A stretch of DNA of 64,000 nt from Marine Group I thaumarchaeote (GTDB taxonomy: Archaea > Thermoproteota > Nitrososphaeria > Nitrososphaerales > Nitrosopumilaceae). The stretch lies in the NCBI GenBank assembly GCA_013390745.1, contig JACASX010000002.1:62001-126000 (forward strand), in the 5' to 3' direction. The notes beneath the pieces were generated by a model that worked only from the letters and a program-made list of their open reading frames with translations, was not told where the DNA came from and made no database searches. Below are positions 53,248 to 54,393 of the stretch, in pieces. The position numbers and the translations under genes are program-made. Position 1 is the first letter of the stretch. The number at the start of each line of letters is the position of its first letter.

Positions 53248-53487
53248 ATGGCACAAGCATATGTTTTACTGAATTGTGAATTGGGTGCTGAAGAAGAAAT
53301 AATTGGTAAACTGAAGGAACTTGCAAACGTCAAGGAAGTACATGGAACTTTTGGTGCTTACGATATAACTGCAAAGCTTGAGGCGGAAACAGCCGAAAAG
53401 CTTAGAGAAACCATCACACAAAATCTAAGGAAGATGGACAAAATACGTTCAACCCTAACACTAACAGTAGTGGAAGGACAGGGATAA
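53248..53487 (+). CDS. Stand-alone Lrp/AsnC ligand-binding domain protein
   Basis: The 79-residue RAM domain without DNA-binding part: AYVLLNCELGAEEEIIGKLKEL, VHGTFGAYDITAKLEA, TLTLTVVEGQ. Paralogue of 27665-27919; both keep the ligand-binding turn GxYD. Could sense amino acids or modulate full Lrp proteins. Its ncRNA-like downstream neighbour begins about 45 bp after the stop. Confidence 0.87.
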   Translation: MAQAYVLLNCELGAEEEIIGKLKELANVKEVHGTFGAYDITAKLEAETAEKLRETITQNLRKMDKIRSTLTLTVVEGQG

Positions 53488-53531
53488 CAACTATCTTACA
53501 ACATTAAATATCATAATACCGTATTGTATAT

Positions 53532-53660
53532 GCCGATGGCTGACAAAGCTAACGACTAAAAGAGTGTGGCCTCGCAAAACAAAAAAAATCAGAGCTTTCG
53601 CAGTAAAGCAATTGGAGGTAGTCTCCAAAAGACGTTTTGCCTGAAGGGGTCACACATAAT
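53532..53660 (+). ncRNA. Candidate structured non-coding RNA
   Basis: An ATTAAATA TATA-like box (53503-53510) lies about 25 nt before 53532, as for independent transcripts. The body folds into a 10-bp helix GTGTGGCCTC (53564-53573) with GGGGTCACAC (53646-53655, with G-T pairs) and a 7-bp helix GCAAAAC/GTTTTGC (53574-53580, 53634-53640). Two inner hairpins, GCTTT/AAAGC and GGAG/CTCC, complete it. A 5-bp hairpin TGGCT/AGCTA lies before it. No long reading frame fits. It is not tRNA, 5S, SRP or RNase P RNA by the motifs I know. Confidence 0.65.
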
Positions 53661-53676
53661 ATTATCATTTAGTGTT

Positions 53677-54393
53677 CTAACTAACCACTATTATCCCAAT
53701 ACTGACTAAATACTGAATTCCTGAAATGTATGTAATATTATCAATTTGGTCTGTTGCCCACCACCCAGCACTGTTCTTAATCCAGCCTGGAACTTCCTGT
53801 GATCCTGAAGACTCGGATCTTTCAGTAGAAGGTATAACAATTATGCCCTCTTTGATAAGATACTGAATTCCTAGAAGATATGCCGAGTCATCAATCTGTC
53901 CACCAGCCCACCACCCAGCATGAGTTTTGATCCAGTTTGGAATGACAGTTACAGGTTCTGCAGTTAGTGTATCTGTTGGCTGTGATTTGGGTTTTGCACT
54001 AACATCAATGGTTGCGGTTCCAATATGATATCCTTTCCACTCGACATAGGCACTATATGTGCCAGCTTTGTTACAGCAAATTAGTATAAAATTTTCATAG
54101 TGGCCCTGCTTATTTGTATCCGCAACCACTCTAACCTTTACTTGGTAAGTTTTGCCATCGGGTTCTGAAATTGTCATATAAACAAATATAGTTGATCTCG
54201 GTTCTTCAACAGTTCCGAAAATTTTTATTTTTTCATATTGTGTATTACTGGTCGTTGTGTAAGGAAGTTCTAATGTAGGTTTGTCAACGGAGACTGTTCC
54301 CCATTGTTTATCACTATCATGACTAGCTAATGCATTTGGAATGATCATAATACTAACTAAAATTATGAAAATTGAGAAATGCAAAACTCTCAT
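53677..54393 (-). CDS. Secreted protein with WIKxxAGWW repeats
   Basis: The 238-residue protein has a signal peptide (FSIFIILVSIMIIPNALASHD, cut near 23), a beta-sandwich (30-130) and two C-terminal copies of the lineage-typical repeat: WIKTHAGWWAGGQIDDSAY and WIKNSAGWWATDQIDNITY, each followed by GIQYLIxxGII. Such repeats are frequent at cell-surface proteins of ammonia-oxidising Nitrososphaerota and may bind envelope. Function unknown. Confidence 0.82.
   Translation of the reverse strand: MRVLHFSIFIILVSIMIIPNALASHDSDKQWGTVSVDKPTLELPYTTTSNTQYEKIKIFGTVEEPRSTIFVYMTISEPDGKTYQVKVRVVADTNKQGHYENFILICCNKAGTYSAYVEWKGYHIGTATIDVSAKPKSQPTDTLTAEPVTVIPNWIKTHAGWWAGGQIDDSAYLLGIQYLIKEGIIVIPSTERSESSGSQEVPGWIKNSAGWWATDQIDNITYISGIQYLVSIGIIVVS

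Follow-up and report, generated by a model that had tools for sequence, protein, structure and literature searches.

What kind of gene occupies the short interval between two protein-coding genes of a Marine Group I thaumarchaeote? The interval lies in a 64,000-nucleotide stretch of the genome, termed the window here, to which all unprefixed coordinates refer. It is preceded by a gene for a stand-alone Lrp/AsnC ligand-binding domain (PF01037) with no DNA-binding part (53248-53487, + strand) and followed by a convergent gene (53677-54393, - strand), whose product is probably secreted, has no Pfam match and carries two similar C-terminal repeats, around GWWAGGQIDD and GWWATDQIDN. A first-pass annotation had proposed that the interval encodes a new lineage-specific RNA. 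This proposal stands insofar as the RNA belongs to no Rfam family, shows compensatory changes and is, as far as was searched, restricted to one archaeal family. However, the RNA is not simply noncoding, because its 5′ hairpin lies within a conserved, apparently leaderless ORF of nine codons.

The family member in the window spans 53530-53655 on the + strand, as do all of the features described below, and the predicted RNA is about 125-135 nt long (~130 nt). The TATA-like box reported upstream is present as TTAAATA at 53504-53510, recognized by its sequence and spacing. The following ~125 nt had been described as lacking a usable reading frame, which is incorrect: a nine-codon mini-ORF (ATG CCG ATG GCT GAC AAA GCT AAC GAC TAA, encoding MPMADKAND*) occupies 53530-53559, at or near the predicted 5′ end of the transcript, and its start, stop and length are conserved while its peptide is not. 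The separate hairpin that had been placed ahead of the main stem (P1, 53534-53554, from folding) does form in the prediction, but entirely within codons 2-9 of this mini-ORF. A spacer of 4 nt (53560-53563) then leads from the stop codon to the main stem.

The 17-bp, two-part stem is as first described. Its outer helix, P2, pairs 53564-53573 with 53646-53655 over 10 bp, and its inner helix, P2b, pairs 53574-53580 (consensus GCAGAAC) with 53634-53640 (GUUUUGC) over 7 bp; folding and covariation place all four strands, and spacing also places the 3′ strand of P2. On the 3′ side, the two helices are separated by an asymmetric bulge (53641-53645, from folding and alignment) whose sequence is not conserved. 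Inside the stem are the two further hairpins of the original description. P3 (53594-53609, from folding and covariation) varies in sequence and length, while P4 (53612-53628, from folding, covariation and alignment) has a conserved five-nucleotide loop, which is GUAGU in the window and GNAAU in most members, and is followed by an A-rich linker. The folded RNA has a minimum free energy of -39.7 kcal/mol (z = -3.9), and none of 200 dinucleotide shuffles folds as well. By eye, the A-rich linker could plausibly pair with the T-rich tail in a pseudoknot (AAAAAGG/CCTTTT) in part of the family; it is absent in the window and does not co-vary, and is therefore not claimed.

Measured from base 4 of the TATA box, the mini-ORF start is 26 nt away in 137 of the 156 members. 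This is the usual distance from the TATA box to the transcription start in archaea, and the mini-ORF is therefore probably leaderless. Conservation of the promoter likewise suggests that the RNA would be transcribed from its own TATA box. The 3′ end is probably just past the 3′ strand of P2, where relatives are T-rich. In the window and its own lineage, the promoter spacing is shortened to 23 nt and the T-rich end is weakly developed, so the exact ends are uncertain.

The fold is supported by the compensatory changes that had been sought in homologues. Among 100 diverse members aligned to a covariance model, 29 of the 33 pairs show double-sided changes. Compensatory cells number 347, compared to 90 ± 9 in shuffled alignments and at most 90 when the pairing partner is slid, and 89% of cells pair, a share that falls to 79% after shuffling and to 58% or less after sliding. 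In P2, 96% of cells are paired and 8 of 10 pairs have double changes; in P2b, the corresponding values are 97% and 7 of 7. Because an alignment guided by a model is biased towards that model, the analysis was repeated on 58 members aligned by MAFFT alone. From this alignment, RNAalifold recovered P2, P2b and P4, again with double changes, and P1 and P3 were more variable than the other helices.

No known RNA family accounts for the locus. A search of the window with Rfam returned two tRNAs only, the RNA region itself had no covariance-model match in Rfam 15 up to E = 10, and the loci of seven relatives gave nothing at the gathering score. This agrees with the initial failure to match the sequence to tRNA, SRP RNA or RNase P RNA. 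RNase P RNA and SRP RNA are each usually encoded by one gene per genome, and the genome's own copies lie elsewhere (RF00373 at G000:C12:26700-26979 and RF01857 at G000:C9:37641-37952, respectively). Archaeal H/ACA guide RNAs have an ACA-type box just 3′ of a stem and a bulged guide pocket; in the alignment, the 3′ side of P2 is followed by a C and variable bases, and the 5′ side of the P2/P2b junction is empty. A tmRNA likewise combines RNA structure with an internal reading frame of about 10 codons, but it has a tRNA-like fold and its tag frame is resumed without a start codon, whereas the present RNA has its own start codon and no detected tRNA-like end. It is called neither by Rfam nor by ARAGORN, whose only calls in the window are tRNA-Pro and tRNA-Val, and we know of no tmRNA in archaea. 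A search of the open-access literature found no description of such an ncRNA in Nitrosopumilus or Thaumarchaeota. We know of no class that unites the features of this mini-ORF RNA.

The family is broadly distributed within narrow taxonomic limits. Comparison with 150 related genomes by blastn identified close relatives from within the genus, plus two that are distant, and a first covariance model was built from ten of the relatives found in this way. It detected the RNA in 223 of 250 Nitrosopumilaceae genomes, at 1-5 copies each, including 125 of the 131 that are at least 90% complete, and in 18 of 22 genera. In a 201-genome sample of the order, the sole match outside Nitrosopumilaceae had E = 0.06. 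A second model, built from 58 diverse members and applied to 30 genomes from other families, gave no credible match (best E = 0.16), and the non-Nitrosopumilaceae genomes in a 150-genome sample of the class gave none either (best E = 0.06). Matches outside the family to models R1 and R2 were weak (E = 0.06-0.98), and two of them (L206 and L207) did not resemble the RNA by eye. A pattern scan of named genomes found chiefly Nitrosopumilus, Nitrosarchaeum, Marine Group I and other thaumarchaeal assemblies; it also matched three bins labelled Nitrososphaeraceae, Hyphomicrobiales and Chitinophagaceae, which are probably mis-binned contigs. No match came from phage records, nor from IMG/VR when scanned with a strict pattern. 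As far as was searched, the RNA thus appears restricted to one archaeal family, Nitrosopumilaceae. One genome (G077) contains two tandem copies about 310 nt apart (L249:1501-1624 and 1810-1932), with different mini-ORF peptides (MPMIVTPIN and MPIVPTVD).

The mini-ORF is retained throughout the family. All 156 members of the first set have an ORF of 9 codons (151 members) or 8 codons (5 members), beginning with ATG in 149, GTG in 5 and TTG in 2, and ending in TAA in 107, TAG in 26 and TGA in 23. The rule behind this ORF test is loose: it is also satisfied in 6% of shuffled 5′ regions and, away from the immediate surroundings of the ORF, at no more than 10% of positions. Codon changes were tallied along a minimum spanning tree that links the distinct ORFs; since these sequences are related, the counts are not strictly independent. 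On this tree, the stop codon changed 17 times, a frequency similar to that of the codons nearby, and every change gave another stop, where the chance for a blind change is 0.25 each. The start codon changed once, compared to 12-35 changes per codon in codons 2-9. In-frame stops within codons 2-9 occur in none of 81 ORFs, compared to 53 and 25 of the 81 in the other two frames. Among ORFs of normal size, length varies by exactly one codon, and the stop lies 2-5 nt from the foot of P2 in all 100 members examined.

A follow-up set of distinct loci, mostly new to the ORF analysis apart from a few that duplicate first-set genomes or sequences (e.g., L234 and the MLVQCRMMD group), has an 8- or 9-codon ORF in 47 of 49 cases. 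In five of its members (L237, L238, L245, L257 and L258), ATG has become ACA and codon 2 is TTG or GTG, which indicates that the start has been relocated by one codon. The two exceptions are L244, in which the stop is lost, and a divergent copy (L256:1221-1341, genome G023), which keeps a start and a stop around a four-codon mini-ORF (MQMI*). For one paralogue, from genome G057, the ORF that was selected automatically lies in an alternative frame (MNNAERCKF).

The encoded peptide behaves very differently from its frame. Synonymous changes in the mini-ORF number 33 where 38 are expected, and codons 5-8 show 70 non-synonymous compared to 6 synonymous changes. Wherever a genome with several copies was examined (26 of 26), its paralogues encode more than one peptide, and unrelated peptides such as MLVQCRMMD, MFTKPQKMA and MPCVSADN fill the same slot. 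This pattern of change indicates that the peptide itself is not under selection. The hairpin within the ORF is also kept, with a mean z of -2.4 over 85 distinct ORFs, so part of the ORF pattern could be structural. However, the register of P1 shifts between lineages while reading frame and length stay fixed.

Structure, ORF and promoter spacing are thus conserved without the peptide. Given that start, stop and length persist although the peptide does not, the passage of a ribosome seems to matter, rather than its product. Our preferred reading, held tentatively and with slightly less than even confidence, is that of a free-standing structured RNA that is engaged and gated by ribosomes, and in which translation itself is selected. 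Such an RNA would serve as both an RNA machine and a minimal mRNA, expressed from its own TATA promoter. The transcript would begin at the AUG or a few bases from it, and a ribosome would load at this 5′ end in leaderless fashion, read 8-9 codons while melting P1 underway, and terminate at the stop 2-5 nt ahead of the foot of the main stem. From ribosome geometry, the leading edge of the terminating ribosome would abut the stem, with the P2-P4 domain still wound. The selected trait would then be the passage of the ribosome and its end point. Loading or arrest at the 5′ end might switch the RNA, for example between P1 folded and P1 melted; alternatively, the P2-P4 domain might be presented at the mRNA entry side. 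In either case, the RNA may act as a sensor or regulator of the translation state.

The main rival, which we consider possible but doubtful, is a dual-function or ribosome-protected sRNA with a trans-acting 3′ domain. In this case, the 3′ domain would work as a conventional regulator in trans or as an RNP scaffold, and the mini-ORF would only keep a ribosome at the 5′ end against decay or block a longer frame from entering the structure. The stop codon always just ahead of the stem, and a structured domain conserved independently of P1, would fit such a role. Insulation alone needs no conserved start, however, and the start is not only kept but even relocated. Moreover, the window's genome contains no match of at least 16 nt elsewhere on either strand, and hence no obvious antisense target. 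Archaeal precedents do favour this rival: a leaderless 20-aa sORF has led to a dual-function proposal for sRNA154 of Methanosarcina mazei (PMC11456600), and ribosome-associated sRNAs, mostly without evidence of coding potential, are described in Haloferax volcanii (PMC12482152). Dual-function sRNAs such as bacterial SgrS/SgrT and, as proposed, M. mazei sRNA154 (PMC11456600) are likewise free-standing with a small ORF at or near the 5′ end. In these, however, the peptide is conserved, whereas in the Nitrosopumilaceae RNA only start, stop and length are; its ORF is also only 8-9 codons long, encloses a hairpin that covaries and ends right beside the structured domain. The Haloferax RNAs (PMC12482152) resemble it as archaeal sRNAs that engage ribosomes, as the present RNA would, and differ in that a strict mini-ORF is here conserved across a whole archaeal family.

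A bioactive peptide of 8-9 residues could instead be the product, with the remainder of the RNA serving as a structured 3′ UTR. This would explain why start, stop and length are kept, and in two paralogue types (MPKDIIPID and MSLVxKSxx) the peptides are indeed alike across species. This likeness within types can be attributed to conservation of P1, however, and the lack of a synonymous excess, the loop codons that freely change amino acid and the unrelated peptides in the same slot make this disfavoured explanation improbable.

Conversely, the RNA might be plainly noncoding and the ORF a by-product of a conserved P1 and fixed flanking motifs. P1 is real and the flanking positions are conserved. 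Even so, motifs of this kind would not account for stops that interchange only among the three stop codons, starts that interchange only among ATG, GTG and TTG, lengths that among normal-size ORFs shift by exactly one codon, a frame that stays fixed while the hairpin register shifts, or the relocation to GTG or TTG. This explanation is quite improbable.

The surroundings of the RNA bear on whether it serves a neighbouring gene. The downstream neighbour is convergent and only a few bases away in 66 of ~94 loci, as it is in the window, and in 45 of ~94 loci a divergent short-chain dehydrogenase (SDR) gene, identified by Pfam, lies upstream. Neighbours vary between lineages and between paralogues. 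The dominant locus in many relatives (e.g., L079) consists of the divergent SDR gene, the RNA and a convergent gene for a small membrane protein, followed about 0.8 kb further by a co-directional gene whose product looks like a putative ESCRT-III/CdvB-type protein. In the window, the PF01037 gene ends 42 nt ahead of the mini-ORF, an arrangement found in the closest relatives only; this gene is incidental, and in most relatives the RNA lies between other genes. Because neighbours differ and the downstream gene is mostly convergent, the RNA is, on this comparative evidence, a free-standing gene, neither the leader of one gene nor tied to the Lrp gene. A cis-acting leader or attenuator of a neighbour is accordingly disfavoured and most improbable: leader-peptide attenuators likewise pair a very short ORF with an alternative-looking structure, for which the position of the ribosome would matter, but this RNA stands alone, mostly with no co-directional gene downstream.

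Our confidence is evenly balanced as to whether the family is a new class of archaeal RNA that needs translation over a fixed 8-9 codons of any peptide, as a stand-alone ribosome-gated switch or ribosome-docking RNA universal in Nitrosopumilaceae. Few cells in the ocean are as abundant as these ammonia-oxidizing archaea, which drive nitrification and of whose regulatory RNAs, to our knowledge, little is known. The occurrence of the RNA in nearly every good genome, often in several copies, makes it a strong candidate for a core function. If the preferred reading is true, the mini-ORF would be a clean example from nature of selection on the act of translation rather than on its product. The family would also supply natural variants, including GTG and TTG starts, a relocated start and 8-codon forms, for the study of archaeal leaderless initiation and of the coupling between ribosome and RNA.
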